A stretch of DNA of 64,000 bases from an uncultured Acetatifactor sp. (GTDB lineage: Bacteria; Bacillota; Clostridia; Lachnospirales; Lachnospiraceae). Both the position numbers and the translations under genes were made by a program. Under the pieces are notes generated by a model. That model was not told the origin of the DNA, ran no database searches, and saw only the letters and a list, made by a program, of their open reading frames with translations. Each line of letters starts with the position of its first letter. Within the stretch, counting starts at the first letter, position 1. The stretch is taken from positions 1 to 64,000 of the forward strand of contig CATKXX010000003.1 in assembly GCA_949840935.1 (NCBI GenBank). Direction: 5' to 3'. Below are positions 18,283 to 41,523 of the stretch, one piece after another.

Positions 18283-18490
18283 TCCCCTCTATCCCCCGGC
18301 TTGCAATACACAGGCGCCAGAGCGGCAGGGCCCTCCCCGGGGGGCATGGGCGAGATGCGGAGAGGAGACTCCGGCGAGGCCCGTCCCTCAGGCGGGCATT
18401 GCCGTGCCTGAGGCTCATCGAAGCGCCTATCGAGCTGTCCCCCGGGGAGGGCCCTGCCGCTCTGACGCCGTCCCATTGCATCCCATTGCA
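18283..18490 (+). repeat. Structured intergenic element, copy 1
   Basis: A 26-nt perfect inverted repeat (18318-18343 with 18439-18464) closes a 95-nt core that holds CCTCAGGC/GCCTGAGG and GGAG/CTCC hairpins. Upstream flank CCCTCTATCCC and GGCTTGCA, and a downstream tail of two TCCCATTGCA units (18471-18490), also belong to it, because the same parts recur in the same order in copy 2 at 41266-41500 on the other strand. Core sequence is conserved between copies, whereas part of the closing stem differs but stays paired. It is neither a simple terminator nor coding. Confidence 0.8.
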
Positions 18491-18523
18491 TCCCCCCACC
18501 CACCCAAATGGAGAACACCCCTC

Positions 18524-19879
18524 ATGGAAAAGAAACCGATACAGAATAAAAAGAAAGTCCTGACAGGCTTTATCTGCTTCCTTGCCTTTATGGCCGTCTG
18601 CACCCTGGTCACAAAGGGGATTTACACCTCCGGGATGGCTCTGGTAACAGTGGATCATCCCAAAGAGAGTACTCTGACCCATGCCATCACTCTTCAGGGA
18701 AGGGTGAAGCCGGGACAGGAATACGGCATCTATGTACAGCAGGGCCTTCGCGTGGAGACAATATATGTCAATACTGGAACTGTAGTGGAAGCGGGCACAC
18801 CCCTGTTCCAGGTGAGGATGGAGGATCTGGAACTGATGATCGACAGTGCGGAGGCGGATATCCGTTACCGGCAGGCTCTGCTTGCGGACGAGGCAGGGCG
18901 GAAACAGGAGGAATGGCAGGACAGGCAGAGCAATATTGCAGGAATGCAGGAGGGCTACGACAGTATGGTGCGGGAGCTGGAGATTGCCCTTGAGAAGAAA
19001 TATCTGGCCTATCAGGCGGCCATACAGGCCAGGGAGCGGGAGGAGGAAGCTTTTTCCACCGTTTCAGGCGGCGACGCCGACAGCCTGGAGCGAAGCCGTC
19101 TGGCGGAGGCTCAGGCTGCCCTGGAGGCGGAGGAAGCCCTGCTCCAAAAGGAAGCGGCAGTCCGGGACTGGAACAGACAGCTTCAGGACATGCAGCGGAC
19201 GGACTACAACGCCGCGGCGGAAACCGTTTCCCTGAAAGACCAGCTGGAACAGGGCCGCAAATCCCTGGAAAATCTGAAAGAGCTGTATGAGGCAGAGGGA
19301 GTGGTCTGCGCCCGGGAGGCGGGGATGATCGTGGACAACAGGCTGCGGACGGGGGAGTATACGCCGGATACCGCCTGTATGCTGTTTATCAGGAGGGAGG
19401 ACGCGGGCGTCATAGAGTTTGTCCTGGATGAGCTGAGCCTGGAATACCTCTCCACGGGGGACAGTGTGGAGCTGGAATACCGCCTGGAAAGCGGTGAGAA
19501 AATATGCCGGGAAAGCGTCATCTCCTACATGGGGAGCCAGGGAGGGAATTACGTGGCCAGGGCAGAGCTTTCCGACGCCCAGCTGATGCTTGGCCAGAGG
19601 GTCACTTTGAAATGCCGGTTTGTAACGGAAAAGTACTCCACGGTCATACCCGGCCAGGCTCTGGTGGAGGAGGATGGACGGTACTATGTCTATGTGGTGG
19701 AGGAACAGGAGGGCTTTCTGGGGACGGAAGACCGCGTCCGCAAGGTAAACGTTGCCCTGGCCGATTCCAATACCAGCTCCGCAGCGGTAGAGAGCGGCGC
19801 CGTCCATTCGGGGAGCCGGGTTGTGATCACCGCGGACAGGGAGCTGACCGAGGGGGATGCGGTGAGGGTGCGCAGGTAA
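18524..19879 (+). CDS. HlyD/RND-type membrane-fusion (adaptor) protein
   Basis: The protein has 451 residues. One N-terminal transmembrane helix (about 12-32) is followed by a lipoyl-like half (residues 55-100: GRVKPGQEYGIYVQQGLRVE), a long alpha-helical hairpin (about 100-265, rich in E, A, Q, L), the second lipoyl half with VCAREAGMIVDN and beta-barrel domains. This is the adaptor layout of ABC or RND efflux systems in a Gram-positive. No MacB-type ATPase/permease is adjacent, so the partner is not identified; it may act with the sugar transporter neighbours only by chance. ATG 18524 has a weak site (GGAG 9 nt upstream), and the structured element lies just before it. Confidence 0.8.
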   Translation: MEKKPIQNKKKVLTGFICFLAFMAVCTLVTKGIYTSGMALVTVDHPKESTLTHAITLQGRVKPGQEYGIYVQQGLRVETIYVNTGTVVEAGTPLFQVRMEDLELMIDSAEADIRYRQALLADEAGRKQEEWQDRQSNIAGMQEGYDSMVRELEIALEKKYLAYQAAIQAREREEEAFSTVSGGDADSLERSRLAEAQAALEAEEALLQKEAAVRDWNRQLQDMQRTDYNAAAETVSLKDQLEQGRKSLENLKELYEAEGVVCAREAGMIVDNRLRTGEYTPDTACMLFIRREDAGVIEFVLDELSLEYLSTGDSVELEYRLESGEKICRESVISYMGSQGGNYVARAELSDAQLMLGQRVTLKCRFVTEKYSTVIPGQALVEEDGRYYVYVVEEQEGFLGTEDRVRKVNVALADSNTSSAAVESGAVHSGSRVVITADRELTEGDAVRVRR

Positions 19880-20020
19880 TTTTCGGTAAAAAGTATTTCC
19901 CTTTTCCCCTGCTTATGGTACAATTTTCTGTAAAGAGATTTTCTCCGGCGGAGTGTGAATAAATTTTCCGGCGGAACAGGATCATTCCTGACCAATAAAG
20001 CAGAGAAAGAGAGAACAGAG

Positions 20021-22018
20021 ATGAACCAGACAAAAGAAGCAAGGCCCAACGATGCCAGGAGGCGGGGATTGGGAATCACAGTAAAGCTGGTGGCAGCTAT
20101 TGTTGTGAGTGTTATCATTGCTGTGGCTGCGCTGCTGGCGGTGGTGTATGACCGCATGTCCCAGACACTTCTGGAAAAGAGTGAGGAGATACTGAGTACT
20201 ACCACCGATAAGACGCTGCAGGAGACCAGGGCATGGATGAACCGTACGCTCACCATGCTGGAAACTCAGAGGGACATTATCGAGTATGAGGATATGGATA
20301 TCCCGGAGCTGACAGAGTATATTAAGCACACAGTGGGGCAGAACGATGCTTATCCGGCGGGGCTGTATGTGGCGCTTACGGACGGATCACTGTACCATGC
20401 GACCTTTGTGCCGGGACCGGATTTTAATGCGCTGGTAAAGAGCTGGTACCTGGACGGGCTGGAATCCGAGGACTTTATACTGGGGGATGTGTACTTTGAT
20501 GAGGACAGCCAGTCCTATGTGGTAGGCGCGTCAGGAGTGCTGAAGGATGGCAGTGGCGCAGTGCGGGGCGTTGCGGCGGCGGACGTATACCTGAATTCCA
20601 TTTCCAAAATTGTCAGGGAAATACAGATTGAAGATACCGGCGGTATTTTCCTGGTTGACACGCGCACAGATACGATCATCGGGCACCGGGACGAGGCGAT
20701 TACAGGGACTAAGCTGAGTGAGGGCGGCGGTATGTACGCCTATGCGGAGGAGCAGATCCAGGCAGGTATGAGGGGGCTCGGACTGTATGGGAACACATAC
20801 ATCCAGATTGCCGAGATTGAAGGGAGCAGCTGGATAGCGGTAGCGTATGTTTCCAGGGCGGAGGTATTGGCGGAGCTTCAGGAGCTGACCAAGACCATGG
20901 TGGCAGTGTCGGTGATTGCAGTGCTTGTACTGACGCTTCTGGTGGTAATCCAGACACGGCGGATCATCGGCAGGCCCGTTAAGGAGCTGAGCCGGGTGGC
21001 AACCCGGATTGCGGAGGGGGAGCTGGATCAGTCCATCCATTACCGCTCCCGGGATGAGCTGGGCATTCTTGCCTATGACTTTAATCAGGTCACGGTAAAA
21101 CTTCGGGATTACATAAAATATATTAACGAAATTTCTGATATCCTGCGGGAAATCGCAAAGGGAAATCTGGCATTTGAGCTGCAGAGTGAGTATGACGGCG
21201 AGTTTGAGAAAATCAGGGATTCCCTGGAGGAGATTTCTGTTGAGCTCAATATTGTCATGGGGCAGCTGAACGCTTCCTCCAGGGATGTCGCGGCAGGCGC
21301 GGCACAGGTTTCCAACAGTGCGGTTAACCTTTCCCAGGGTTCCACGGAGCAGGCGTCGGAGGTGGAAGCGCTGGCGGGGCATATCGCGGAGGTGTCCGAC
21401 AGTGTGCAGGAGATTGCACAGGGAGCGCAGAAGGCAAGCGGCATTTCCCGGGAAGTAAGGAAAGGGCTTCTGGAGAGTAACACTAAGATGCGGAATATGA
21501 CCGATGTGATCCAGAGGATAAATGATAAATCCAATGAAATCAATAAGATCGTAAAAGCGATTGACGATATTGCGTTCCAGACGAAAATCCTTTCCCTCAA
21601 CGCGGCGGTAGAGGCCGCCCGGGCGGGAGATGCGGGAAAGGGCTTTGCAGTGGTGGCCGAGGAGGTACGGATTCTGGCGGGAAAGACAGCCGATGCGGCC
21701 CAGGAGACCACGGAGCTTCTCGGAGAAACGATCAGTTCCATGGAGGAAGGTGTCAGGGCTGCCGACGACACGGCGGAATCCATGCTGGCGGCAGCAGGGC
21801 TGGCGGAGGAGATGAACGATCTGATAGGCGGCATTGCGGATTATACGAAAAAGCAGGCTGCCACAGCGGCGGAAATCAGCCATGGCATCGACCAGATTGC
21901 CATTGTGGTGCAGTCCAATGTGGACACTGCAGAATCCAGCGCCGCTGCCAGCGAAGAATTGTCCGGCCAGGCTGCGTCGTTGCGTGAGATGGTATCCCGG
22001 TTCCGTCTGAAGGGATAA
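20021..22018 (+). CDS. Methyl-accepting chemotaxis protein with large Cache-like sensor
   Basis: The protein has 665 residues. TM1 (about 17-40) and TM2 (about 293-316) enclose a 250-residue extracytoplasmic sensor with a dCache-like pattern ([34 protein letters not shown]). HAMP spans about 318-370. The signalling hairpin contains [20 protein letters not shown] and [15 protein letters not shown], the contact site for CheA/CheW. The start follows AGAGAGAACAGAG. No che genes are nearby. It senses an extracellular ligand, probably a small organic molecule, and signals to the flagellar motor or another output. Confidence 0.93.
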
Positions 22019-22425
22019 TGCGCCGCCGCGAAGCGTTTTCACGCGTCTTTTGCTTGACGGGCAGCTGAAGTGACAAACAGGGAACGGCCCCTTGCAAAAT
22101 GCAGGACACTGTGATAAAATGGGCACAGAATAGAGAAAGGCACATAATTTGTGTGTGGTGAGAGAATGAGCAGCAGATAGTTTGATCAGGAAAAGCAGAC
22201 ATTACGGGACGTGTTTCAAACACGTTCTATGACAGGAGCCCCGGAGGGCGCTTTGTTTGCGTATGCCGAATCAGATTATCACACTCATTGGGAACCATAC
22301 ATTCTGCGGGAAGCACGTTTCTTCCCGGCGGGGATACATTCTTCCGGGAAATTTCCATGCCTGATCCCGGGGGGCTGTTACGCAGAGATTAATTGTAGGG
22401 TTTCATTCATAGAGGATTATTTGTG
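22019..22425 (+). other. Intergenic region before the ABC-F gene
   Basis: No supported gene. A 17-nt odd palindrome ACGTGTTTCAAACACGT at 22209-22225 could be an operator. A GTGATAAAAT at about 22110-22119 looks like a -10 region of the kind seen elsewhere in the window. Short CCGGGAA repeats lie near 22310-22350. The stretch may be the leader of the ABC-F gene. Confidence 0.35.
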
Positions 22426-22459
22426 AAGAGTCTGTTTTCGGCAACGAAAACAGACTCTT
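22426..22459 (+). promoter_or_regulatory. Perfect 15-bp hairpin in the ABC-F leader (possible attenuator)
   Basis: AAGAGTCTGTTTTCG (22426-22440) pairs perfectly with CGAAAACAGACTCTT (22445-22459) around a GCAA tetraloop; only three T residues flank the 3' arm, so it is a weak classical terminator. It lies 35 nt before the ATG of the ABC-F gene. Leader attenuation by drug-stalled ribosomes is known for several ABC-F genes; whether that applies here is inference. Confidence 0.6.
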
Positions 22460-22494
22460 TGCGTGACCCCGGGGATTCCGGAAATGGAGGAATT

Positions 22495-24066
22495 ATGTTA
22501 CAGATTCGGAATTTAAATATTACGCATAAAAAGGATCTGCGTGTTATCTTACAGGATTTCTCCTGCGTGCTGAACGCGGGGGATAAGGCGGTGATCATCG
22601 GGGAGGAGGGGAACGGGAAATCCACGCTGTTGAAGTGGCTGTACGAACCCTCGCTCATCGAGGCTTACGCGGAAGCGGAGGGGGAGAGGGTCGTAAGCGG
22701 GGAGCGTCTCGCCTATCTGCCCCAGGAGCTGCCCCGGGAGCAGGCGGCCAGGACTGTCTGCGAGTACTTTATGGAGGAGCCCTGCTTTTACGAAAAGACC
22801 CCGAAGGAGCTGGGGAAGCTTGCCAGGGACTTCCATCTTTCCCCGGAATTCTTTTATGGGGAACAGCTCATGGGAACCCTGTCCGGCGGGGAGAAGGTGA
22901 AAGCCCAGCTGATGCGCCTGCTGATGGGGGAGCCCACGGTGCTTCTTCTGGACGAGCCCTCTAACGACATTGATGTGGAGACGCTGGAATGGATGGAAGG
23001 GCTGCTCAACAGCTGGGAGCATATTGTCCTTTTCATTTCCCATGACGAGACGCTGATTGAAAACACGGCTAATGTAGTCATCCATATGGAACAGATTTGC
23101 AGGAAGGCCCAGAGCAGGTATACGGTTGCCCGTATGCCCTATCAAAGGTATCTGGAGGAGCGGAGAAACCGGTTTGACAGGCAGGAACAGCAGGCATTAA
23201 GCGAAAGGCGTGAGAAACAGATCCGGGATGAAAAATTCAGGAGGATCTATCAGAGCGTGGATTTTGCGCAGGCCAGCATATCCCGGCAGAACCCGGGGAA
23301 GGCCAGGCTGTTGAAGAAGAAAATGCACGCCGTGAAATCCATGGAGAAGCGGTTTCAGAGGGAAGACCAGGGGATGACGGAAATACCTCAGGAGGAGAGC
23401 GCCATTTACTTTAAACTGGGCGATAAAAGCGCTTCCATCCCTTCCGGGAAGGGAGTCATAAACTTCTCATTGGAAAGGCTGTATGCCCCGGAGGGAGGGC
23501 GGCTGCTCTCCGAAAATATCCGGCTGCTGATCCGCGGGCCGGAAAAGGTCTGCATAATAGGAAATAACGGAGCCGGAAAGACTACACTGTTGAAAAGGAT
23601 GGCGGAGGAGCTTCTGGCCAGGGAGGATATCCATGCGGAATACATGCCGCAGGATTACGAGGATCTGCTGGAGCTTGACATGACTCCTGTGGATTTCCTG
23701 GACACCTCCGGGGAAAAAGAGGAGAGAACCAGGATCAGGACTTATCTCGGTTCCCTGAAGTATACTGCCGATGAGATGGAGCATCCCATAGCCTGCCTCT
23801 CGGGAGGGCAGAAGGCTAAGGTGCTGCTGCTGAAAATGAGCCTGTCGGGAGCGAACGTGCTGCTTCTGGATGAGCCCACGCGGAATTTTTCGCCGCTGTC
23901 CGGCCCGGTCATCCGCAGGATGCTGACGGAATTTCCGGGGGCCATTATCAGCATATCCCATGACAGAAGATATATCCGCCAGGTGTGCCATAAGGTCTAC
24001 CGGCTGACAGAGGGCGGCCTGATACCGGAAAACGGCGAAGGAATCACAGGGGACAGCGACAGGTAA
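22495..24066 (+). CDS. ABC-F family ATPase (putative ribosome-protection protein)
   Basis: The protein has 523 residues and two ABC domains with no membrane part. Domain 1: Walker A GEEGNGKSTLLK, signature TLSGGEKVKAQL, Walker B VLLLDEPSNDID. Domain 2: GNNGAGKTTLLK, CLSGGQKAKVLLL, VLLLDEPTRNFSP. A charged linker (about residues 215-300) with RRNRFDRQEQQ and RQNPGKARLLKKK joins them, as in ABC-F proteins that enter the ribosomal E site. ATG 22495 follows TGGAGG. Members confer resistance to lincosamide, streptogramin or pleuromutilin-type drugs or act as translation factors; which applies here is not clear. It is convergent with the ankyrin gene, 25 nt away. Confidence 0.88.
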   Translation: MLQIRNLNITHKKDLRVILQDFSCVLNAGDKAVIIGEEGNGKSTLLKWLYEPSLIEAYAEAEGERVVSGERLAYLPQELPREQAARTVCEYFMEEPCFYEKTPKELGKLARDFHLSPEFFYGEQLMGTLSGGEKVKAQLMRLLMGEPTVLLLDEPSNDIDVETLEWMEGLLNSWEHIVLFISHDETLIENTANVVIHMEQICRKAQSRYTVARMPYQRYLEERRNRFDRQEQQALSERREKQIRDEKFRRIYQSVDFAQASISRQNPGKARLLKKKMHAVKSMEKRFQREDQGMTEIPQEESAIYFKLGDKSASIPSGKGVINFSLERLYAPEGGRLLSENIRLLIRGPEKVCIIGNNGAGKTTLLKRMAEELLAREDIHAEYMPQDYEDLLELDMTPVDFLDTSGEKEERTRIRTYLGSLKYTADEMEHPIACLSGGQKAKVLLLKMSLSGANVLLLDEPTRNFSPLSGPVIRRMLTEFPGAIISISHDRRYIRQVCHKVYRLTEGGLIPENGEGITGDSDR

Positions 24067-24091
24067 CTGACAGGTATCTGACAGGGAAGGC

Positions 24092-26137
24092 CTAGCGGAT
24101 ATCCGTCATCAGCTCCAGCACCGTGTCCATGCCCTTCTCCGCTGCAAGCTGGGCGGGGGTCACGCCCTGATTGTTGGCCCGGTTATAGTCGGCGCCTTTT
24201 CGGATCAGATAGCGCGCGTCCCCCTCGGAGCCGTATTCCAGGGCATAATGCAGGGCGGTATTTCCTTCATTGTCCGCCAGATTGGGATCCGCTCCCGCCC
24301 GGAGCAGTTCTTTGGCGGTTTCCTTGGAGGTCAGGAGCATTAAGGGGGTGACGCCGCCCTGATCTGTGTGGTTTACATCGGCACCCCTCTCCAGGAGCAG
24401 GGAAAGGATTTCCTCGGATGCGCCGGCATCGGCAAGCAGCATCAGGGGAGTCCTGCCATCCGCCCTTGGAAGGTCGATGTGTTGCAGCTCCTTCAGAAGC
24501 CCGGCTCTCTGTTCCGGCGGCAGAAGCCTGCCCTTGCTTTTGCCTCTTATGGCATAATGGGCAGGGGCTTCGCCGTTTATGTCAGCCAGGGTATCGTCTG
24601 CCCCGGCGGCTATCAGCAGCCGTACCACATCCTCATGGCCCTGCAGGCAGGCGCAGTGCAGTGCGGTGACGCCGGAGTCAGCCGGTTCGTCCTGGGTAAG
24701 GTTAATATCCACGCCTTTTTCCAACATGGCCTGCAGCATACCGGCGTGGCCGTTCTCTGCAGCGAGATGAACGGCGGCCCTGCCGTAGTTGTCCGTCTGT
24801 TCCATGGATTCCCTGGAGAAAAACCCTGCGGCTTCCTTCAGGAAGGCTTCCCGTTCCCCGTATCTCTGCTGGCCGAGCCCTGCGATGATCCTGGCCGGGG
24901 TCTGTCCCTTAATGACTGCCCGATCCAGATCTATCTCCAGCTCCGCCAGCTTTTGGAGGGTGCGGATCCCGTAAGCGCTGTGCAGGCATTCATCCCGCAG
25001 GCAGAGCATCTGGCCGTTGGCATAGACAGGCGAGGTAAAGTCGATCCCCTTGTCCCTGCAGATTTCCAGCAGATGTGCGTCCCTGTCCGACATCAGGGCA
25101 CTGTGCAGAAGGTCTGTGATCTCTCCCAGCTCGTCCTCGTCATCGGGATCCATCCCGGCAATCATTTTCCCCGTCAGGTACAGGGCCATGTCCATGGCAT
25201 CCCTGTTATCCTCAGAGACATCGCTGAAGGCATTGTCGGTGATCTGGCTTAAGGGAAATAATTCCATGGAGTCGCCCGGGCCAGGTGTGGCGCCATGTTC
25301 CAGCAGGGCGAAATACATGGCTTGATTGCGGAAGTCAACAGCGTGCTTTATGGGGGTCAGGCCCTTTTTATTGGCTGTGTTTAACAGGCCGGGACATCGC
25401 TCCATGAGCTGCAGGGCGGCGGTGATATGGCCGTTTTTCTGGGCCAGCAGCAGAAGGGTGCTGCCGTCCTCGTCCACATAACCGGTATCCGCGCCCTTAT
25501 CCAGGAAAATTTCCGCCAGCGGCCAGGTATAGGAGGAACAGTAGCCGGTGGAAAGCAGCAGCTCCAGGGGAGTGAGCCCGTCGGAATTTTTTTGATTAAT
25601 GTCACAGGATAGGAGGCGGGCCAGCTCCCCTCTCTGCTCCACGCTTTTTTCCAGGCAGCCCGTATCCACCGCCAGCCCTTCCAGCCGGGGGTATGCCAGG
25701 AAATGGTATGCGTTCATGCTTCTCTCATCGCAGAGGGAGCTGTCGGCGCCGTGCTCCAGCAGAAGCCTGGCCATGGCGAGGTTCCCCCGGGAACAGGCCA
25801 GGAGGAAAGGGGTAAGGCCATGTCCCTGGCTGTCGGTGAGGTTGGCGGTTTTCTCGTCCGCCTTTCCGGCGGAGAACATGTCCCTGACCGCATCAGGGAA
25901 ATTCAGCCATACCAGAAGGTGAAACAGAGTGAACCCGCTTTCGCCCACCGGCGTATGCAGTTCCTCCCTTCCGCATTCCGCCACACAGGCGTTTACCTCT
26001 CTTACGGTCTCCTCCGGGAAGTGATCGTAATCGCTTCCGGAATCTTCCAGCCCGGTATCCCACCAGGGGACATACCTGGCCTGGCTGTATTGTTCGCCGG
26101 CTTCCACCAGCATTTCTGTAAGCTTCCTGATATCCAT
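24092..26137 (-). CDS. Large ankyrin-repeat protein
   Basis: The protein has 681 residues, with about a dozen ankyrin units recognisable by G-x-TPL-x-A/L and LLxxGAD patterns, for example GLTPFLLACSRGNLAMARLL, GRAAVHLAAENGHAGMLQAM, GVTALHCACLQGHEDVVRLL and GNTALHYALEYGSEGDARYL. The first 60 residues are not repeats and contain RYVPWWDTGLEDSG. No signal peptide or membrane helix is seen, so it is likely cytoplasmic and acts by protein binding. Start: GAGGCGG upstream of the ATG at 26137. It is divergent from a second ankyrin gene over a 156-nt intergenic region. The target is unknown. Confidence 0.9.
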   Translation of the reverse strand: MDIRKLTEMLVEAGEQYSQARYVPWWDTGLEDSGSDYDHFPEETVREVNACVAECGREELHTPVGESGFTLFHLLVWLNFPDAVRDMFSAGKADEKTANLTDSQGHGLTPFLLACSRGNLAMARLLLEHGADSSLCDERSMNAYHFLAYPRLEGLAVDTGCLEKSVEQRGELARLLSCDINQKNSDGLTPLELLLSTGYCSSYTWPLAEIFLDKGADTGYVDEDGSTLLLLAQKNGHITAALQLMERCPGLLNTANKKGLTPIKHAVDFRNQAMYFALLEHGATPGPGDSMELFPLSQITDNAFSDVSEDNRDAMDMALYLTGKMIAGMDPDDEDELGEITDLLHSALMSDRDAHLLEICRDKGIDFTSPVYANGQMLCLRDECLHSAYGIRTLQKLAELEIDLDRAVIKGQTPARIIAGLGQQRYGEREAFLKEAAGFFSRESMEQTDNYGRAAVHLAAENGHAGMLQAMLEKGVDINLTQDEPADSGVTALHCACLQGHEDVVRLLIAAGADDTLADINGEAPAHYAIRGKSKGRLLPPEQRAGLLKELQHIDLPRADGRTPLMLLADAGASEEILSLLLERGADVNHTDQGGVTPLMLLTSKETAKELLRAGADPNLADNEGNTALHYALEYGSEGDARYLIRKGADYNRANNQGVTPAQLAAEKGMDTVLELMTDIR

Positions 26138-26221
26138 ATCCGCCTCCTGAGATCGATTTACTATATTTTATCACGGAAGGGGTATGAAAGAAAGCGCCGG
26201 TTTGCTGCCGGCAACAAGTTA

Positions 26222-26250
26222 TTGACAGTGGAAAGCTGTTTTTATACAAT
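26222..26250 (+). promoter_or_regulatory. Sigma-A type promoter for the second ankyrin gene
   Basis: TTGACA (26222-26227), a 17-nt spacer and TACAAT (26245-26250) lie 44 nt before the ATG at 26294. The -35 box matches consensus fully and the -10 box in five of six positions. Confidence 0.75.
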
Positions 26251-26293
26251 GAGTATAACTGTTAATGACGAGACAAAATATGGGGAGGAAAAG

Positions 26294-27268: not shown

Positions 27269-27332
27269 ACACAGAGAAGGTATGAGGAAAATGTAAGAGA
27301 GAAGACGATTCCAGAAAAGAGGAAACGGTTAG

Positions 27333-30759: not shown

Positions 30760-30824
30760 GGCTTGGCCAGGAAGGCCCTGCAGGGAATTCAGAAAAAAGA
30801 AATGGCCGCAGGCGGCGGAAAGGC

Positions 30825-32918
30825 ATGGTATTTGGTATGGAGGAAAAGAAAAACAAATGTCCGTTGTGCAGTAAGAGACTGGTGATGAAGGATGGCGTGC
30901 CCACATGCCCTGACTGCGGCTATCGCGACCCTCACCGCGTCGGCGGAGGTCAGCCCAATGCCGGAGGCGGGCCGTCGTACGGAGGTCAGCCCAATGCCGG
31001 AGGCGGGCCGTCGTACGGAGGTCAGCCCAATGCCGGGGGCGGGCCGTCGTACGGAGGTCAGCCCAATGCCGGAGGCGGCCGGCCGAATGGCGGCAGTCAG
31101 CCGCAGCCTGCTCCTGGCGGCAATGCCGGGAACGTGTCCAATACGGCAGTTATTATAATGGTGGTTGTATTTGTGGTGATCGCAATAGTGGGGGGAGGTA
31201 TTGCAAGCCTGATCTTTATGTTGCGGAACCTGGCGCAGGACGGGCCGGACAGTGTGGTGCAGGGCAGCCGGGAAGCTTCGGAGGTGTACGGAGGGGCTTC
31301 TGCCGGGGGTTCTTCCCGGGAGGAGGGGGAAGCTTCCTCATCCTCCTCTGCGTCCCACAGGAATTCCGAAATCAGCCATCTGACCTTTGAACCGCCGGAA
31401 GGCGAGCTTTTGAAGGAATTTGTCAGCCAGCTGTTTGACAAGCCTGCCGCATCCGTTACAAGGAGTGATCTGAACAGTGTGGTCGGCCTGGAGGTGCGCG
31501 ATATGCAAAACAGCAGCGGTACGGAGATCGTCTATGAATTGTCTGACGGGACAATGGGAATCTGCTACCTGGAATCTTCCCGGGTGGATACGGAGGATTT
31601 TAAATGTTTCCCGAAGCTGCAGCACCTGGATTTGGGGAGGAATTCCCTGGACTGGGATACGGACTGGCATAAACTGACCTCTCTGACCCGGCTTGCCTGT
31701 GGGGCTTCCCTGAAGGATCTGGCGGGGTATATGGATGTTTCACAGCTGGAAGCGTTGGAGCTGACCTGTGATTTTATGATGAGCGATTGCAGCGGGATAG
31801 AAGAATACAGCAGCCTGGGATATCTGTGGCTGGACTGCTCCGATCACGGGATGGAGCTTACGGGGCTTTCCCGGGCGCCTTTCCTGGAGGCGCTTATCAT
31901 AGAGGACGGCGACGGTATCTCCGACTTTGCGGAGCTTTATGATATGCCGCAGATCAAGATACTTTCCATTGATTCCGAAGGCCTGCGGGATATCGGCTTT
32001 ATCAGCGCCATGTCAGGGCTGGAGTGGCTGGAGCTGTGCAACACGGGCCTATTGCAGATTGATGCCGTCTCAGACTGCGCGGACACGCTGACCTGTCTCA
32101 GGCTGCACAAGAATTATTCTTTGGAAGATTACAGCCCGGTGTTTGAATGTACCGGCCTGGAAGAGCTGGAGCTCTTTGTATATTATGATCATGACAGGGA
32201 GATGGCCATGCCGGATCTCTCCATGATGCCGGGCCTGAAGACGCTGGCCCTGGGCAATTACGAGAAATTCCCCGGCCTGAAGGATATGACGTCCCTGGAA
32301 AACCTGGTGCTGGAGGATGCAGGCTATTTTGACGATGCCGCAGAGCTGGCGGGAGTGGAAAACCTTACCGGGCTGAAAACCTTATCCCTCATAAATATGT
32401 CCATGAGCCCGGCATTGCCGGAGGCTTTTGCAGAGGTGGCGTCCCTGGAGGCCATAGACCTGACGGACAGTTATATCTGGGGCGATATCAATGCCCTGTT
32501 CGGGATGCCCAATCTGAAGACGCTGAATCTGGAGGATGCGGATTTCGGTTTAAGGCTGGAGGATATGCCCGTCAGCGAGAGCCTTCTGGGGCTGAATATG
32601 GAGGGAACCAGCGTCCATCAGCTGAAGGAGGACGGGAGCTGGGATTACAGCGCGGACAATACGAGGATCCGCCTGGGGGATCACATGGAATTCTTTGAGC
32701 ACATGCCGAATCTTACTCTGCTGAATGTGCCGGATCAGGAATTGCAGAGTGTGGAATTTGCAGGGAGCCTGTCACAGCTTGAGTGTCTGGATATCACAAA
32801 TAATTACGTCACTGACCTGTCTCCGCTGGCGAAGCTTGGCCGGCTGAAGGTGATCTTTTGCGGAAATAATCCGGTCAATGACAGGACGGGGTTGAAAAAT
32901 GTGATCATCATAGACTGA
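30825..32918 (+). CDS. Zinc-ribbon, Gly-rich repeat, transmembrane and leucine-rich-repeat protein
   Basis: The protein has 697 residues. Residues 12-31 form a zinc ribbon (CPLC and CPDC pairs). Residues 40-90 are perfect or near-perfect GGQPNAGGGPSY repeats. A transmembrane helix follows at about 105-133, then a serine-rich linker, and from about residue 230 to the end irregular leucine-rich repeats (LQHLDLGRNSLDWDTD, LECLDITNNYVTDLSPL). There is no signal peptide; the zinc ribbon is presumably inside and the LRR domain outside. The start has GGAAAGG close upstream; ATG 30837 is an alternative. The combination suggests a surface-binding protein tied to a cytoplasmic metal-binding tag. Confidence 0.85.
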   Translation: MVFGMEEKKNKCPLCSKRLVMKDGVPTCPDCGYRDPHRVGGGQPNAGGGPSYGGQPNAGGGPSYGGQPNAGGGPSYGGQPNAGGGRPNGGSQPQPAPGGNAGNVSNTAVIIMVVVFVVIAIVGGGIASLIFMLRNLAQDGPDSVVQGSREASEVYGGASAGGSSREEGEASSSSSASHRNSEISHLTFEPPEGELLKEFVSQLFDKPAASVTRSDLNSVVGLEVRDMQNSSGTEIVYELSDGTMGICYLESSRVDTEDFKCFPKLQHLDLGRNSLDWDTDWHKLTSLTRLACGASLKDLAGYMDVSQLEALELTCDFMMSDCSGIEEYSSLGYLWLDCSDHGMELTGLSRAPFLEALIIEDGDGISDFAELYDMPQIKILSIDSEGLRDIGFISAMSGLEWLELCNTGLLQIDAVSDCADTLTCLRLHKNYSLEDYSPVFECTGLEELELFVYYDHDREMAMPDLSMMPGLKTLALGNYEKFPGLKDMTSLENLVLEDAGYFDDAAELAGVENLTGLKTLSLINMSMSPALPEAFAEVASLEAIDLTDSYIWGDINALFGMPNLKTLNLEDADFGLRLEDMPVSESLLGLNMEGTSVHQLKEDGSWDYSADNTRIRLGDHMEFFEHMPNLTLLNVPDQELQSVEFAGSLSQLECLDITNNYVTDLSPLAKLGRLKVIFCGNNPVNDRTGLKNVIIID
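30945..31088 (+). repeat. 36-bp in-frame tandem repeat
   Basis: Units at 30945-30980, 30981-31016, 31017-31052 and a diverging fourth at 31053-31088 each encode GGQPNAGGGPSY. The first two units are identical at nucleotide level and the third has one substitution, which points to recent expansion. Confidence 0.92.
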
Positions 32919-33026
32919 GCCTGTCATAAATCAGAGCTGTTAATCACACCTGATCTGTGATAAAATAGAACCGTATTTGGGAATGCGCCTGCCTGGCTGT
33001 AAGCCGGGCGGGATGATTCAGTAAGG

Positions 33027-33058
33027 GGACTGTCAAGAGTGATCCTGTAACAGTCCCT
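33027..33058 (+). other. Leader hairpin before the protease gene
   Basis: GGGACTGT (33027-33034) pairs with ACAGTCCC (33051-33058) 28 nt before the ATG at 33086. A TGTGATAAAAT at about 32955-32965 may be the -10 region. Role unknown. Confidence 0.4.
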
Positions 33059-33085
33059 GAGCTCGGGAGAGGTGCTGCGGGGGAA

Positions 33086-34609: not shown

Positions 34610-34859
34610 GTGCCGGAAATATTTTCAGCGCAAAGCATACCGGAAAAAATGCGGATCATGTCATATTGTGGAAACAGGGCGGCGATTTGTATATAATGGA
34701 CTTGTTCTGGCAGCGTGGATGTAAAATGTAACAAAAAGTTGACTGCTTTTGCACAAAAATTGTATCGCAGCCTTGCAAAATTCAGAAAATTCAGTTAGTA
34801 TTAAGTATAAACTGCAATTTAACAAGGCGGCATGCCGCCGGCATACAGGAGGGGTTCCA

Positions 34860-35696
34860 ATGTATCAGCTGATTGATGGAAAGGCAATTTCCCGGCAGAT
34901 TAAGGACGAATTAAGGGAAAAGGTAGAAGGGCTCAGGGCGCAGGGGAAGGAAATCTGCCTGGCAGTCATACAGGTGGGCAGCGACCCCGCTTCCAGTGTA
35001 TATGTGAACAACAAGAAAAAGGCGTGTGAATACACAGGCATCCGCTCCCTGGCATACGAGCTGCCGGAGGAGACTACAGAGGAGGAGCTGCTGGCGCTGA
35101 TCGGCGAGCTGAACAGCAGGGAGGATGTAAACGGTATCCTGGTGCAGCTGCCTCTGCCCGCACATATCAATGAGGAGCGGATCCTTCTGGCCATTGATCC
35201 GGCCAGGGATGTGGACGGTTTTCACCCGGTAAACGTGGGGAATCTGAGCATCGGCAGGCCGGGTTATGTGTCCTGTACCCCTGCGGGGGTGATCCAGCTT
35301 CTGAAGCGTTCCGGTATCGAAATAGAGGGAAAGGAATGTGTGGTGCTGGGCAGGAGCAATATAGTAGGTAAGCCCATGGCCATGCTTCTGCTGCGTGAGA
35401 ACGGCACTGTCACGGTCTGCCATTCGCGAACCCGTAATCTCAAGGAAATCACGAGGCGGGCGGATATCCTTGTAGTGGCTGTGGGGAAACCGGGGTTTGT
35501 AGATGCGGATTATGTGAAGGAAGGTGCTGTGGTAATAGATGTGGGCATCCACAGGGATGAAAACAATAAGCTCTGCGGCGACGTGGATTTCGATTCCGTG
35601 GCGCCCCATACTTCGGCGATCACGCCCGTTCCAGGCGGCGTGGGCCCGATGACCATTGCAATGCTCATGAATAACTGTGTGGAGGGTCTGAGATAG
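34860..35696 (+). CDS. folD: Methylenetetrahydrofolate dehydrogenase/cyclohydrolase
   Basis: The protein has 278 residues, normal for FolD. It interconverts methylene-, methenyl- and 10-formyl-tetrahydrofolate with NADP. Visible motifs: [11 protein letters not shown] with the catalytic lysine region, the [10 protein letters not shown] segment, [11 protein letters not shown], the [11 protein letters not shown] nucleotide loop and [14 protein letters not shown] 34860 follows AGGAGGGG. A TATAAT at 34692-34697 and a palindrome GGCGGCATGCCGCC (34826-34839) lie in the leader. The chemoreceptor gene follows after 43 nt. Confidence 0.97.
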
Positions 35697-35739
35697 GATA
35701 ATATTCATCAAAAATAGATACAAGGGAGGGTCATGCTTA

Positions 35740-37503
35740 ATGGAAGTACAAGAAACAAATGTACCAACAGTAACATCAGACATCCCGGCTCAGAAGAAAG
35801 AGAAGAAAAAGTCGGGTATCAAGCTTCAACTGATCATGCAGACAGTTGCCCCTGCATTAATTATTGCTGCTGGTCTGACCTTTTTTGCACGTTCCAGCCT
35901 GATCGACGGTCTGGAAACACAGGCGCTGGAGGGCCTGGATATGCTGGCCGAGGCTACTATGGCGGGGTACAGTAACATGGATGGCGAGTATCACTTTGAA
36001 AACGATGTCTTTTACAAGGGTGAGACGGACCTGTCGGCCGAAATGGAGGAGCTCGACAATTATGTTACCGGCTCCCAGGCTGCGGTCACGGTGTGCTATG
36101 GGCCGACCCGCGTGATGACCACATTGAAAGATCCTTCCACCGGGCAGCGGATCGTGGGTACCAATGTTGCGGATGTGGTATGGGAGACCATACAGCGCGG
36201 CGAGGTATACACTACCAGCCATATTACGATCAATAATGCGGATTACGCGGCCTGCTATGTACCTCTGAAGAATCCGGACGGAACCATCGTGGGCATCGTC
36301 TTTGCAGGGAAGCCCAGGGAGGAAATTGACAGTTACATTGAGACAAAGGTATTCTCCATTGTGGCTCTGGCCGTTGTTCTGAGCGTGTTGTTTACCGGCA
36401 TGGGGTATGTCCTTGCCAGCAAGATTGCTAACTGTCTGATCAGGACAAAGCATGCGCTGGAGAGCCTGGCTGCCGGAGAATTGAATACCAAAGTGGATTC
36501 CGCTATCCTGAAGCGCGGTGACGAATTAGGCGCGATGGGGGGAGCGTTAAGGGATCTGATCACCAGGCTGAGGGATATTGTAGGGCATCTGCAGGAATCC
36601 GCAGGCCGGCTGGATCAGGCCGGCGAGTCCCTGGATGGGATGGCAGGCCAGTGCAGCAATGCCACAGATGAGATCAGCCGTGCCGTGGATGAGATTTCCA
36701 GGGGCGCCGTATCCCAGGCGGAGGAGATTGAACATGCCTCCGGCCAGATCGTGGAGATGGGCGGACAGATTGAAAGCATTGTGGACAGTGTGGGCCGGCA
36801 GTCGGCTATCTCCAACACCATGAGCAGTGCGGGAAATGCTTCCATGGAGACCATGTACCAGCTCAGTGATTCCAATGACAAGACGGTGGAGGCGCTGAAC
36901 AGCATTGCCAGGCAGATACAGCTGACCAATGATGCCGTGCAGAAGATCAGCGAAGCCACGGAGCTGATCACCTCCATCGCTTCCCAGACGAGCCTGCTTT
37001 CCCTGAATGCGTCCATTGAGGCGGCGAGAGCGGGTGAAGCGGGGAAAGGCTTTGCGGTGGTTGCAACGGAGATTCAGAAGCTCTCGGTACAGTCCAACGA
37101 CGCTACTGTGGAAATCCAGAGTATTATTTCTACGCTGCAGAGCGAGGCCCAGAAGACTGTGGATGAGATGAAGAATACGGAAAGGCTGATGCAGGAGCAG
37201 CAGAAGAGGCTGGATGACACCAGGAATAAGTTCAATGATGTGAGCAACGGTATCAACGATTCCAGAAGAGGGACGGAAGAAATCCGTATGAGTGCGGATT
37301 CCGCGGACAGCTCCCGGTCAAGCGTCATTGACGTCATATCGAATCTGTCCGCTATTTCACAGGAGAATGCGGCGTCTGCCGAGGAGACAGCATCCTCCAT
37401 GGAGGAGCTGAATGCGACCATCAATCTGATGGCGGAGGAAGCGGCAAGGCTGAAACAGATATCCAACGGCCTGAATGAGGAGATGAATTACTTTAAGATG
37501 TAA
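35740..37503 (+). CDS. Methyl-accepting chemotaxis protein, single Cache sensor
   Basis: The protein has 587 residues. TM1 at about 27-50, an extracytoplasmic domain of about 150 residues with a single-Cache pattern ([36 protein letters not shown]), TM2 at about 205-228, HAMP, and a signalling hairpin containing [28 protein letters not shown] lies 9 nt before ATG 35740. A strong terminator follows. It is unlike the other receptor at 20 kb in its sensor, so it should recognise another ligand. Confidence 0.94.
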
Positions 37504-37524
37504 ATCGTTAAGACGTAAATTTAT

Positions 37525-37553
37525 GCCCCGGTGTTTCCCGCCGGGGCGTTTTT
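37525..37553 (+). terminator. Rho-independent terminator after the second chemoreceptor
   Basis: GCCCCGG (37525-37531) pairs with CCGGGGC (37541-37547), followed by GTTTTTC. It lies 21 nt after the stop codon. Confidence 0.9.
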
Positions 37554-37556
37554 CAA

Positions 37557-37596
37557 TGCACACAAAATGGGCAAATGCAGCCCATTTTGGTGTGCA
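37557..37596 (+). other. Second long hairpin directly after the terminator
   Basis: TGCACAC-AAAATGGGC (37557-37572) pairs with GCCCATTTTGGTGTGCA (37580-37596) with one bulged base and a 7-nt loop. No U run follows. It may stabilise the upstream 3' end, or be a leader element of the next operon, although it lies upstream of the predicted promoter. Confidence 0.6.
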
Positions 37597-37649
37597 AGAG
37601 AGCACGAAACACCTCGCGGGCTTTCGCGGCAAATTTTAGAAAGATTTAC

Positions 37650-37677
37650 TTGCAATGGGAGTATTTTGTGGTAAAAT
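37650..37677 (+). promoter_or_regulatory. Promoter of the dipeptide-type ABC operon
   Basis: TTGCAA (37650-37655), a 16-nt spacer and TAAAAT (37672-37677) precede the receptor gene start by 54 nt. Both boxes are near consensus. Confidence 0.6.
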
Positions 37678-37731
37678 AGTGGAGACAATTGAATAGTGAG
37701 AGGTTTATTGATCGAAGAGGAGAAGAGCGCA

Positions 37732-39267
37732 ATGAAACGTATCAAAATACTTTTAACGGCACTTCTGACAATGGCTGTACTGGGCGGATGCGGCGCAGAC
37801 GGCACAGGAGAGTCTTCGGGGGATAATTCCTCTAAGGAGCCCGTATACGGGGGCTCCGCAGTTGTAGGCATACAACAGGATATTGACAGTCTTGACCCTC
37901 ATAAAGCAACGGCGGCAGGAACGAAGGAAATCTTGTTTAACATTTTTGAAGGCTTGGTTAAGCCCGATGAAAACGGTGGTCTGATCAATGCAGTGGCAAG
38001 TGACTATACGATCTCCGAGGATGGTCTGGTATATACCTTCACCCTGAGGGATAACGTAAGGTTCCACAATGGCAATGCTGTGACGTGTGAGGATGTGAAG
38101 TACTCCCTGGAGAGGGTGTCAGGGCTTCTGGACGGTACGCCCCTCATTTCCACACTGAAAACGATTCAGGCCGTAGACATATTGGATGAAAAGACGGTTC
38201 AGGTGACAGTGGAAAGTGCGAATACAGAGCTGATCTACAGCTTTGTGGCGGCAATCATTCCCGCGGGGAGCGGGGAGGATGAGTCGGCGGATCCCATTGG
38301 AACGGGGCCGTTTTCTTATGTTTCCTATACGCCCCAGGTGGGGATCGTATTGAAAAAGAACCCTGATTACTGGCAGGAGGGGCTGCCTTACCTGGATGAG
38401 GTCAACTTTAAGATCGTCAACAGCCCGGATTCGGCGGTGCTTGAGCTGCAGGGCGGGACAATCGACATTTATGCCTATCTGACGGATTCCCAGGCGAAGG
38501 AGCTTGAGGAGACCTTCAATGTGGAGGCTTCCCCCTCTAATGTGGTGCAGGCGCTGTTTTTAAACAACGCAGTGGCTCCGCTGGACGACCTGCGCGTGCG
38601 CCAGGCTATCTGCTATGCCCTTGACAGGGATATGATCAATGAATTCGTAGGCGGCGGAAACGGCACCCTGATCAGCTCCGCCATGCTCCCCACATTAAAG
38701 GATAATTACGTGGACTTAAACGATACGTACGGTACCGCGGCCAATGTGGAGAAGGCGAAGGAGCTGCTGGCGGATGCGGGGTATGCGGACGGCCTGGATC
38801 TGGAGATCGCTATCCCCTCCAATTATGAATTCCACATGCAGACCGGGGAGGTTGTGGTGGAACAGCTGAAGGAGGCAGGAATCAATGCCACGATCAAGGC
38901 GGTGGAGTGGAGTACATGGCTCGATGAGATTTACAACGGGCGGCAGTACCAGGCTACCATCAGCGGCATTACCTGCGATACCACTCCCGGATACCTGTTG
39001 AACCGGTTCCAGACGGACTCCAAGAAGAACTTTATCAACTTTGCAAATGCGGAGTACGACGAGCTCTATCTGAGGGCCCAGGGGACGCTGGATGCCCAGG
39101 AGAAGATTGACGACTACGCACAGCTCCAGCGGATCCTCTGCGAGGATGCGGGTAGCGCGTTCCTGCAGGTTCCCGCCAACATGACGGCTATCAACAAAAA
39201 GCTTGGCGGCTACAAGTTCTACCCTGTCTATGTGCAGGATATGAGCACGGTGTTCTGGACGGAATAA
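37732..39267 (+). CDS. Peptide/nickel-type ABC-importer receptor lipoprotein
   Basis: The protein has 511 residues of the solute-binding family 5. A signal peptide with lipobox VLGGC (Cys20) anchors it. Family motifs: DSLDPHKATAAGTKEILFNI, the LTDNV-like FTLRDNVRFHNGNAVTCEDV, GTGPFSYVSYTPQ and VRQAICYALDRDMI. ATG 37732 follows GAGGAG. It delivers peptides or similar solutes to the two permeases downstream. The substrate class cannot be fixed from sequence. Confidence 0.93.
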   Translation: MKRIKILLTALLTMAVLGGCGADGTGESSGDNSSKEPVYGGSAVVGIQQDIDSLDPHKATAAGTKEILFNIFEGLVKPDENGGLINAVASDYTISEDGLVYTFTLRDNVRFHNGNAVTCEDVKYSLERVSGLLDGTPLISTLKTIQAVDILDEKTVQVTVESANTELIYSFVAAIIPAGSGEDESADPIGTGPFSYVSYTPQVGIVLKKNPDYWQEGLPYLDEVNFKIVNSPDSAVLELQGGTIDIYAYLTDSQAKELEETFNVEASPSNVVQALFLNNAVAPLDDLRVRQAICYALDRDMINEFVGGGNGTLISSAMLPTLKDNYVDLNDTYGTAANVEKAKELLADAGYADGLDLEIAIPSNYEFHMQTGEVVVEQLKEAGINATIKAVEWSTWLDEIYNGRQYQATISGITCDTTPGYLLNRFQTDSKKNFINFANAEYDELYLRAQGTLDAQEKIDDYAQLQRILCEDAGSAFLQVPANMTAINKKLGGYKFYPVYVQDMSTVFWTE

Positions 39268-39270
39268 AAA

Positions 39271-39418
39271 GCTGCTTTTCACACCCATGCCACCATTAGT
39301 GTACTGGCCACGGAGTGAACGGTAATAATAAAAGCAGCAGTATGACGGGAGTATCAAAAGACAGAAATATGAAAAGATAGAAATAGAAAGAGACAGAAAT
39401 AGAAAAAGACATAAATAT
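39271..39418 (+). repeat. Intercistronic hairpin and purine-rich tandem repeats
   Basis: GCTGCTTTT (39271-39279) can pair with AAAAGCAGC (39330-39338). It is followed by four 15-16-bp units of the type AAAAGACAGAAATA (about 39357-39418) and then AAAGGAGG before the permease start. The stretch may tune expression of receptor relative to permeases. Confidence 0.65.
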
Positions 39419-39437
39419 AAAAGGAGGTGGCAGCTAC

Positions 39438-40397
39438 ATGAAATATTTTATGAAAAAATTAATCACTCTCATTATGACATTGTTCCTGGTTTCTGTGGCT
39501 GCCTTCCTCGCTTTTCAGATCATTCCCGGGGATGTGGTGACATCCATACTGGGGACGGAGGCAACTCCCGAGAGGGAGGAGCAGCTTCGGGAAGAATTGG
39601 GACTGAATAAGCCGCCTGTGGAGCGATATTTTAACTGGGTGGGGGATGTTTTGAAGGGAGATTTAGGAGAGAGCTACCGCTATTCCAAAAATATGAATGA
39701 GATGATGCCGGTGGTGGAGCTGATCGGGGATAAGCTGCCGGTGACGCTGTGGCTGGCGGCAGTCTCCCTGGTGCTGATCGTAGCCGTAGCCATTCCTCTG
39801 GGAGTGCTGTGGGCGAGAAGCGGAAGCCACATCCTGGATGCCGTGCTGGGGGTGGTGACGCAGGCTTCCATGGCGGTTCCGTCCTTTTTCCTGGGGATCC
39901 TTGTGACCTATTTATTCGGGATTATCCTGAAGCTCTTTGCTCCCGGCAGTTACATAAGTTATCAGGAGGACTTTGGGGGATTCCTGCAGTACCTGTTGTT
40001 CCCGGCGCTGTCCGTGGCCATTCCCAAGATTGCCATGACCGCCAGGTTCCTGCGCAATGCCATGCTGACGGAGCTGCAGTCCGACTATGTCCGCACCGCG
40101 TACAGCAAGGGCTGTACAGAGCGCCGTGTGATGTACGGGCATGTGCTGCGCAATGCCATGATGCCGGTGGTCACTTTCCTGGGGATGATCATTGCGGAGA
40201 TTGTGGCGGGAAGCATTGTCATCGAGCAGGTATTCGGCCTGCCCGGTATCGGGCGGCTGCTGATCAGCTCTATTTCCACCAGGGATTTCCCGGTGGTGGA
40301 GATATTAATTCTATATATTACATTTGTAGTTATATTTGTATACTTCCTGGTGGATATCCTTTACCGGGTGATCGATCCCAGGATCAGTGAAAAATAG
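39438..40397 (+). CDS. ABC-transporter permease, DppB/OppB type
   Basis: The protein has 319 residues. It begins MKYFMKKLITLIMTLFLVSV with a first helix and the conserved PGD (IIPGDVV) periplasmic turn, has six spans in total, and carries the EAA-like loop RTAYSKGCTERRVMYGHVLRN. It forms half of the channel for peptide or nickel-type substrates. AAAGGAGG lies 8 nt upstream. Confidence 0.93.
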   Translation: MKYFMKKLITLIMTLFLVSVAAFLAFQIIPGDVVTSILGTEATPEREEQLREELGLNKPPVERYFNWVGDVLKGDLGESYRYSKNMNEMMPVVELIGDKLPVTLWLAAVSLVLIVAVAIPLGVLWARSGSHILDAVLGVVTQASMAVPSFFLGILVTYLFGIILKLFAPGSYISYQEDFGGFLQYLLFPALSVAIPKIAMTARFLRNAMLTELQSDYVRTAYSKGCTERRVMYGHVLRNAMMPVVTFLGMIIAEIVAGSIVIEQVFGLPGIGRLLISSISTRDFPVVEILILYITFVVIFVYFLVDILYRVIDPRISEK

Positions 40398-40413
40398 AGT
40401 GTGGAAAATCAAA

Positions 40414-41235
40414 ATGAGAGCGGATATGGAAAAACGCAGTGCGGGGAAATGGAATAAGTATCTTGTGGCAGGCCTGTTTATGACAGGCCTTGCCCTGTTG
40501 CTGGGCATTGTGGGTATTTTCTGGACGCCGTACAGCACTACCGCCATGTCTGCGGCGGAGAAATTTGACGCGCCGTCCCTGCATCATATTTTCGGAACAG
40601 ATAATTTCGGCCGGGATATCTTCTCCCGGGTGATGGAGGGCATGGGGACTACGGTGGTCATCAGCAGTCTGGTAGTTCTGTTTTCAGGTTCCCTGGGGAT
40701 TCTGCTGGGGGCGCTGACGGGCTATTTCGGGGGCCTGCTGGACGAGGCGGTGATGCGCGTGGTGGATGCGGTCAACGGGTTTCCCAGCATTTTACTGACG
40801 CTGGTGATCATCAGTATCCTGGGCAGCGGCAGGCAGAATGTGATTTTGTCTCTGGGTATTGTGTTTGTGCCAAGCTATATCAGGATTGTCCGCAGTGAAT
40901 TTATCCGCCTGCGGGACGCGGATTATATCAGAAGGGCAAGGCTTATGGGAGTGGGCAGGCTGCGCATCCTGTTTGTGCATATCCTTCCCAATATTTTCTC
41001 GGTATTCTGGGTGTCGGTGATGATTGGGTTTAACAATGCGATCCTCGCGGAGTCCGGAATGAGTTATCTGGGGATTGGTGTGCAGCCCCCTGACGCAAGC
41101 CTGGGCAAGATGCTTTCGGATGCCCAGGGATACCTGCGGACGGCTCCCTGGTATGCCCTGGCGCCGGGACTTGCCATTGTGTGGGTGGTGCTGGGATTTG
41201 CGTTGTTTAGTGAGGGGATCAGGAGGAAGGAATGA
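40414..41235 (+). CDS. ABC-transporter permease, DppC/OppC type
   Basis: The protein has 273 residues with six helices. Family marks: the GTDNFGRDIFSRV periplasmic motif after TM1 and the EAA loop RRARLMGVGRLRILFVHILP. The start is uncertain: ATG 40414 is given; GTG 40387 overlaps the upstream stop by 11 nt and would add nine residues. It pairs with the upstream permease. The operon then pauses for a 450-nt intergenic region that contains the second structured element before the fused ATPase gene. Confidence 0.92.
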   Translation: MRADMEKRSAGKWNKYLVAGLFMTGLALLLGIVGIFWTPYSTTAMSAAEKFDAPSLHHIFGTDNFGRDIFSRVMEGMGTTVVISSLVVLFSGSLGILLGALTGYFGGLLDEAVMRVVDAVNGFPSILLTLVIISILGSGRQNVILSLGIVFVPSYIRIVRSEFIRLRDADYIRRARLMGVGRLRILFVHILPNIFSVFWVSVMIGFNNAILAESGMSYLGIGVQPPDASLGKMLSDAQGYLRTAPWYALAPGLAIVWVVLGFALFSEGIRRKE

Positions 41236-41265
41236 GTAGTGGGGGGCAGGGGACGGCTTTGAGGT

Positions 41266-41500
41266 GACGGGGTAGTGGGGGACGGGGTAGCAGGGGACGG
41301 GGTAGCAGGGGACGGCTCCGGTGCGACAGGGCTGTCTCTGTGCGTCAGTTCGATGGCGTTCCGATGAGCCTCGGGCGCGGCAATGCCCGCCAGAGGGCGT
41401 GCATCGCCGGAGTCTCATCTCCACATCTCACCCATGCCGCACAGAGGCAGCCCTGCCGCCCCGGAGCCTGTTTTCCTGCAAGCTGAGGGATAGAGGGGGC
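41266..41500 (-). repeat. Structured intergenic element, copy 2 (opposite orientation)
   Basis: Read on the minus strand it has the same order as copy 1: CCCTCTATCCC and CAGCTTGCA flank, closing stem, conserved core (GGCATGGG, GAGACTCCGGCGA, GGCGGGCATTGCCG, GAGGCTCATCG) and a tail of TCCC-containing tandem units. The closing stem pairs GGCTCCGG, CAGGGCTG and CTCTGTGCG (41314-41344) with CGCACAGAG, CAGCCCTG and CCGGAGCC (41438-41468). Most of the outer stem differs in sequence from copy 1 yet remains paired. The tail appears on the plus strand as three 15-bp units at 41266-41310. Confidence 0.8.
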
Positions 41501-41523
41501 GGGTAGGAGGGATTTTATTTTGG

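Follow-up and report, generated by a model that had tools for sequence, protein, structure and literature searches.

Multicopy hairpin insertions with a nearly fixed core and fast-changing, complementary arms in Lachnospiraceae

The closest systems found in the literature are MRSC-65-2 and the Correia/NEMIS elements. MRSC-65-2 is a mobile/repeat sequence candidate that, in the description given in PMC11109978, consists of a single long covarying stem with a conserved UYCCGG repeat and is found in many copies per genome in diverse phyla. Its authors view it as a selfish element and leave RNA versus DNA as a question (PMC11109978). Correia/NEMIS elements, as characterized in PMC2229807, are 100-200 bp long, lie between genes, have inverted repeats, duplicate their target and give rise to stem-loop transcripts, and it has been proposed that the NEMIS stem-loops are substrates of RNase III (PMC2229807). 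The element analyzed here shares with MRSC-65-2, as far as that source describes it, the single long covarying stem and the many copies per genome, and it invites the same selfish reading and the same RNA-or-DNA question. In contrast to the UYCCGG repeat reported in PMC11109978, TYCCGG occurs even once in only 20 of 132 elements, and in contrast to the diverse phyla named there, the public records confirmed by our model bear titles of Lachnospiraceae or other Eubacteriales, apart from one doubtful MAG title. With Correia/NEMIS and other small MITE-like repeats it has in common the size, the intergenic place, the target duplication and, in some units, the inverted repeats. It differs from Correia/NEMIS, as these are described in PMC2229807, in its host group and in a core that is conserved across genera, in units with unrelated terminal repeats.

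The window is the whole stretch of DNA that was analyzed, 64,000 nucleotides of an uncultured Acetatifactor sp. (assembly GCA_949840935.1, contig CATKXX010000003.1). An initial annotation had proposed that it contains two opposite-strand copies of one structured element, and both copies and all sequence blocks named for them were found. The two sites are copies of one unbranched hairpin of about 170 nt. Read on its own strand, each copy begins with a pyrimidine-rich flank with GCTTGCA, continues with the three named blocks, and ends with a TCCC-rich tail. The suggested TCCC-containing tandem tails are present as short arrays, and a further array lies 5' of copy 2. What had to be revised are the number and the shape: both copies are real, but there are far more than two, and they fold as a single long hairpin interrupted by internal loops. 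The features in the window are as follows.

18304..18480, plus strand: copy 1, full model match (sequence reading, folding and model)
18313-18469, plus strand: paired hairpin proper of copy 1 (by eye)
18357..18369, plus strand: conserved core of copy 1, 5' strand, GCGGAGAGGAGAC
18412..18427, plus strand: conserved core of copy 1, 3' strand, GGCTCATCGAAGCGCC
18471..18494, plus strand: 3' tail of copy 1, tandem array of a 10-bp unit, TCCCATTGCA, 2.4 times
18265..18271, plus strand: candidate left direct repeat of copy 1, GGAGAAC
18510..18516, plus strand: candidate right direct repeat of copy 1, GGAGAAC
41303..41477, minus strand: copy 2, full model match (sequence reading, folding and model)
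41404..41416, minus strand: core block of copy 2, GAGACTCCGGCGA
41228..41236, plus strand: left direct repeat of copy 2, AGGAATGAG, overlapping the permease stop codon
41670..41678, plus strand: right direct repeat of copy 2, AGGAATGAG
41237..41678, minus strand: insert of copy 2 between two ABC-transporter genes
41246..41315, minus strand: 3' tail of copy 2, tandem array of a 15-bp unit, 4.7 times
41519..41571, minus strand: 5' flank of copy 2, tandem array of a 16-bp unit, 3.2 times

Elsewhere in the window, at 30944-31078, a 36-bp unit is tandemly repeated 3.8 times with 97% matches.

Folding of the single strands gave -128 kcal/mol for copy 1 (shuffle mean -85.5, z -9.06) and -114.3 kcal/mol for copy 2 (shuffle mean -75.4, z -8.90), and in both cases none of 200 shuffles was as stable. 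Seven copies from the own genome define 63 pairs in one unbranched hairpin, 28 of which still pair after a two-sided change in at least one copy. With 31 copies from five genomes, double changes were found in 52 of the 63 pairs (shuffled mean 33.4), which was equalled in 0 of 500 shuffles. Pairing was present in 95.3% of the cells (shuffled mean 73.6) and fell to 39-47% when one strand was slid by 1-3 columns. The compensating stem that had been suspected from the two window copies is therefore real, and stem covariation is present in alignments of many copies. A wide-genome set of 32 copies was aligned by means of the model and evaluated with a custom script; 8 of 40 aligned rows had been omitted, of which seven read the same copies on the opposite strand and one was a further match in L033. 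The outer 34 pairs were paired in 91.5% (shuffled mean 44.7) and the inner 29 pairs in 94.4% (shuffled mean 65.6). These pairing levels were equalled in none of 300 shuffles, and the counts of double-change pairs and of pair types were equalled by some of them.

The consensus of 141 distinct cores, partly fixed by the pattern that was used for collecting them, reads GYGGAGRNGAGAC for the 5' strand and RGGCUCNYCGGARCGY for the 3' strand. The internal-loop core combines GA facing GRAR, a helix of six pairs, an A.G mismatch and a bulge of 5 nt. The core is nearly fixed, while the arms change fast, yet stay complementary. In 82 distinct copies, counted on one strand per place, G-U and A-C combinations number 92 versus 45 in the outer stem and 192 versus 13 in the inner stem (89 versus 53 and 191 versus 22 with a looser row filter); in these counts, as in the pairwise counts below, copies and cells are not independent, because the copies share ancestry. 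As G-U exceeds A-C, the strand read here as sense is the likelier one to be under constraint, probably as RNA.

The initial annotation recognized no known riboswitch in the element. In a search with Rfam 15 at the gathering threshold, the only match in the window is a pemK RNA (RF02913) at 2230-2324 on the plus strand, with 64 bits versus a threshold of 34.8, and there is none at the hairpin sites, nor in six related loci, including loci of the type B hairpin described below. A relaxed search of 18200-18540 returned 8 matches, the best of which were miRNA hairpin models far below threshold. Literature searches retrieved no description of the element, and this family of structured selfish elements is apparently undescribed so far.

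A model search of the host draft genome (2.89 Mb, 64% complete) detected nine sense-strand copies, one with a deleted centre; the 17 matches listed include eight opposite-strand reads of the same places. The 13-mer GAGACTCCGGCGA had led to further copies in the host genome. The model based on 31 copies from five genomes recovers copy 2 with an E-value of 6.6e-36 and copy 1 with 9.1e-35, values that are not independent, because both copies belong to the building set. In a first set of 61 genomes, five had matches, the own genome included, and all five belong to the same genus, of which 37 genomes were searched; none of the 24 genomes from other families of the order matched. With a second model, the element was found in at least 18 of 138 genomes of the genus and in at least 7 of 397 sampled genomes of the family, the own genome included in both, and these searches undercount because only a limited number of candidates was scored per genome (19 in the 138-genome set, 6 in the 397-genome set).

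A pattern scan of public genomes yielded at least 114 stretches, and 61 of 80 listed loci were confirmed by the model. L116 and L155 have no model match, yet show clear hairpins by eye, and 17 of the 80, without a model match and titled as other bacterial or archaeal groups, were dropped as chance matches. By title, the model-checked records belong to Lachnospiraceae, Butyrivibrio, Roseburia, Lachnospira, Hungatella, Acetatifactor, Clostridium and others; named carriers are Lachnospiraceae bacterium CE91-St56 and Butyrivibrio sp. NC2007. Records of JAMPHU01 (L092, L096, L105, L163 and others) are titled Candidatus Gastranaerophilales, but their copies match those of the congener G103, so that either the title or the binning is probably erroneous. 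L163 is identical to L088 across the stretch shown. Viral spread was considered and rejected, as the single pattern match among viral contigs is by eye a chance match without a hairpin. A blastn search of copy 1 against plasmid and phage records gave no match.

Comparison with relatives revealed the insertion of copy 2. The permease gene and the ATP-binding gene abut in 9 of 15 relatives examined, including G001 and G158, whereas in the window they are about 440 bp apart, with the 9-bp AGGAATGAG at both edges. Besides the hairpin, the insert comprises its C-rich tail, a G-poor flank on the 5' side and one of the two direct repeats. In G001 the junction holds AGGAATGAG once and no insert, and it is this empty site that lends weight to the direct repeat, because a shared 9-mer in the edges arises in 72 of 2000 shuffles. 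At the same junction, G111 has a hairpin insertion bounded at either side by GGAATGAG, and shorter insertion remnants are left in G160 and G108. In G020, G014 and G141 the junction contains 56-118 bp of other sequence with no visible hairpin. Terminal inverted repeats were not seen at copy 2, and none are clear at either window copy. The best direct repeat of copy 1, the 7-mer GGAGAAC, is not significant alone (reached in 361 of 2000 shuffles), and G158 has at this site a short junction without the hairpin that is too diverged to show the insertion site.

Further sites were compared for other copies. The C31 copy of the own genome is absent from G111 and G108, and G160 has 105 bp of other sequence there. 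For the C51 and C48 copies, the corresponding places in the relatives contain other sequence, and no clean empty site was found; G158 keeps a piece resembling the 3' end of the hairpin at the C51 site. Four copies with long arms in G268 are missing at the corresponding places of G563, as judged by the coordinates of matching places. The inspection of empty sites in relatives, which the initial annotation had advised, thus uncovered insertion at the copy 2 junction and at the C31 and G268 sites.

In other genomes the hairpin, termed type A, resides in units with transposon-like ends. CE91-St56 contains two 216-bp core-bearing units with a common 22-bp end repeat (one base differs) and exact 8-bp duplications at 2 of the 2 core-bearing units found, as well as shorter units with like ends and no core. 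In congeners, hairpin A is carried by units that end in GTAACNGTTCAGCC (GTAAC units). Fifteen candidates were collected, 10 with and 5 without hairpin A. Among those with A, the 8-bp repeat is exact in two (L200, and L040 with an offset of one base), matches at 7/8 positions in one, at 6/8 in four and at fewer in three; among those without A, it is exact in three, 7/8 in one and 2/8 in one. Since units with the same ends and without the core also bear duplications, in CE91-St56 as well as among the GTAAC units, the core is not needed for transposition there. Because the ends of the CE91-St56 units and of the GTAAC units differ, hairpin A goes with at least two kinds of transposable ends. The element is gene-less and multicopy, and its palindromes, at 97-373 bp, are too short for a transposase gene. 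PF01610, the one transposase family that was sought, is absent from CE91-St56, and none of the terminal repeats was matched to a transposase. ISL3 had been considered as mobiliser of the CE91-St56 unit on the basis of the ISL3 ends, and the transposase search did not support it. Elements of the IS66 type have GTAA ends and 8-bp duplications, and the congener units with GTAACNGTTCAGCC ends and 8-bp duplications resemble them in these features.

Several GTAAC units contain, beside A, a type B hairpin (GATGARATCCACTGCC ... TTAGTTCA) that faces the opposite way. Type B was seen at L158:6779-7008 (plus strand), at L139:7083-7312 (minus strand), and in L083, L222 and L084, the last with four copies. 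By eye, its outer ends are common with those of A, and the GAUGAR/YUCAUC helix of A is present in some copies. Upstream of the full copies in L013 and L016, and also in L028 and L035, tandem arrays with truncated 5' ends of the element were observed, as if the interior had been lost from older copies.

The CE91-St56 units and the better GTAAC units resemble MITEs: they carry no gene, have terminal inverted repeats and are flanked by 8-bp target duplications. Unlike MITEs, the window copies have no visible terminal repeats, and the hairpin core is conserved internally. A target site duplication was found at copy 2, with the empty G001 site, and at both CE91-St56 units, the GTAAC units gave a mixed picture, and the candidate at copy 1 was not significant. 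Membership in the MITEs applies to the better-preserved units and only partly to the window copies. By analogy, the element would work like a MITE with a structured transcript.

The element has spread in many copies by insertion, and its core is conserved and its arms are paired. Three possibilities had been raised at the outset: structured RNA, non-autonomous mobile element and processing signal. A mobile element with a structured hairpin fits best, and we infer an additional RNA or processing role. We consider it probable that the two window loci belong to a family of non-autonomous mobile elements in Lachnospiraceae, in which the hairpin is the cargo of trans-mobilised units and its RNA core is selected on the read-through transcript. 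Resident DDE transposases would move the hairpin in trans via whichever terminal repeats surround it, and the hairpin would be kept as cargo through selection on the transcript. Upon read-through in the sense direction, the RNA would fold into a rigid rod, the internal-loop core of which could be bound by a putative host factor. Recognition of the core would result in processing or insulation of the read-through transcript, and each insertion would cost less. Correction of the arms at the DNA level may add to this selection, so that both forces act together.

Such a correction might also explain the paired arms without selection on RNA. The element would then be a palindromic mobile element whose two arms are matched to each other, either by template switching or by hairpin correction, while it replicates or transposes. 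Its structure would count, if at all, at the DNA level, and the covariation would be no proof of an RNA function. This explanation is possible, if rather doubtful. It is in agreement with four copies of G268 (L238, L244, L247, L249), which have near-perfect arms of 103-154 nt with 94-98% identity; alignments between the G268 copies end at 117-259 nt, inside palindromes of 275-373 nt (one pair has no anchor). These palindromes persist in a chromosome, and their outer parts differ strongly between copies. An origin of the long arms by inverted duplication of host flanks was rejected, because the G563 junctions are without arms and stretches of the arms can be aligned from copy to copy. Between the two CE91-St56 copies, 6 of 68 arm pairs are different, five of them compensated, including two transversions, and one a wobble difference. 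Pairwise differences were counted in subsets of 14 copies of G103, 8 of G000, 9 of G001 and 9 of G020, and in G103 the fully compensated ones outnumber the one-sided ones (269 versus 145, not independent). However, correction would erase the unpaired core loops, yet these loops persist in the model-found copies, and the surplus of G-U over A-C in the stem is not predicted by a symmetrical DNA correction. In addition, one-sided and compensated changes are equally frequent at the insertion common to G000 and G111. Here, the outer pairs include seven two-sided changes that still pair, six one-sided changes with a mismatch in one copy, one wobble difference and 20 unchanged pairs, while 24 of 26 comparable inner pairs are the same and two show wobble differences; the apical loop of G111 is longer than that of G000. 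The arms have thus diverged by seven compensated and seven one-sided pairs, and the core has hardly changed.

An independent gene for a trans-acting small RNA, spread by duplication and with mobility as a secondary feature, seems unlikely. The conservation of core and structure across genera and the folding z-scores near -9 would suit such a gene, but the presence is patchy, some genomes have at least 19 scored matches, positions differ between relatives, and copies lie inside transposon-like units. We regard as very improbable a SINE-like retroelement that would have its hairpin near the 3' end, with short tandem repeats at that end, and whose target duplication would stem from reverse transcription. 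The tails of eel LINEs and SINEs are a parallel for 3' tandem tails, and in several copies of the element the 3' tail indeed consists of tandem repeats into which the element's own 3' end is incorporated, and the unit differs per copy; the lack of visible terminal repeats in the window insert would also fit. Against this, tandem repeats are found on the 5' side as well, and units elsewhere have inverted repeats and 8-bp duplications.

The hairpin copies lie between genes at the loci examined, and an ABC permease gene precedes each window copy, as a cis-regulatory element or terminator of neighbouring genes might. Orientations were taken from a longest-ORF heuristic for 104 distinct loci at which genes were called on both sides; they were same-strand in 30, opposite-strand in 42, convergent in 17 and divergent in 15 cases, and the orientation relative to genes is unbiased. 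Because of these counts and because GTCCC and no T run follows each window stem, cis-regulation or termination is hardly credible; copy 2 is moreover antisense to its neighbouring genes. The initial annotation, too, had seen no fit to a terminator. With respect to replication, sense copies lie on the G-rich side in 56 and on the C-rich side in 71 cases (GC skew, p 0.21), and where the skew is strong in 42 versus 62 cases (p 0.06). An IS200-like insertion into the lagging strand was rejected, as this bias is not significant in spite of the lean to the C-rich side at strong skew.

Within the preferred reading of a mobile element with a selected RNA core, a wider picture may tentatively be drawn, although we would not yet count it as probable. 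A constant, selected RNA hairpin module, represented by types A and B, might ride unrelated transposable ends across genera and swap its mobilising systems, while its arms would be continually rewritten as matched pairs; it would be a structured-RNA hitchhiker of transposons. The insertion common to two species, with rewritten arms and an almost intact core, represents a natural experiment on selection for pairing versus mechanical correction of palindromes, a question that bears on covariation-based claims of RNA function in palindromic repeats. If our interpretation is right, abundant gut bacteria harbor a sizeable family of structured selfish elements, in which the core is kept while the terminal repeats differ between hosts.
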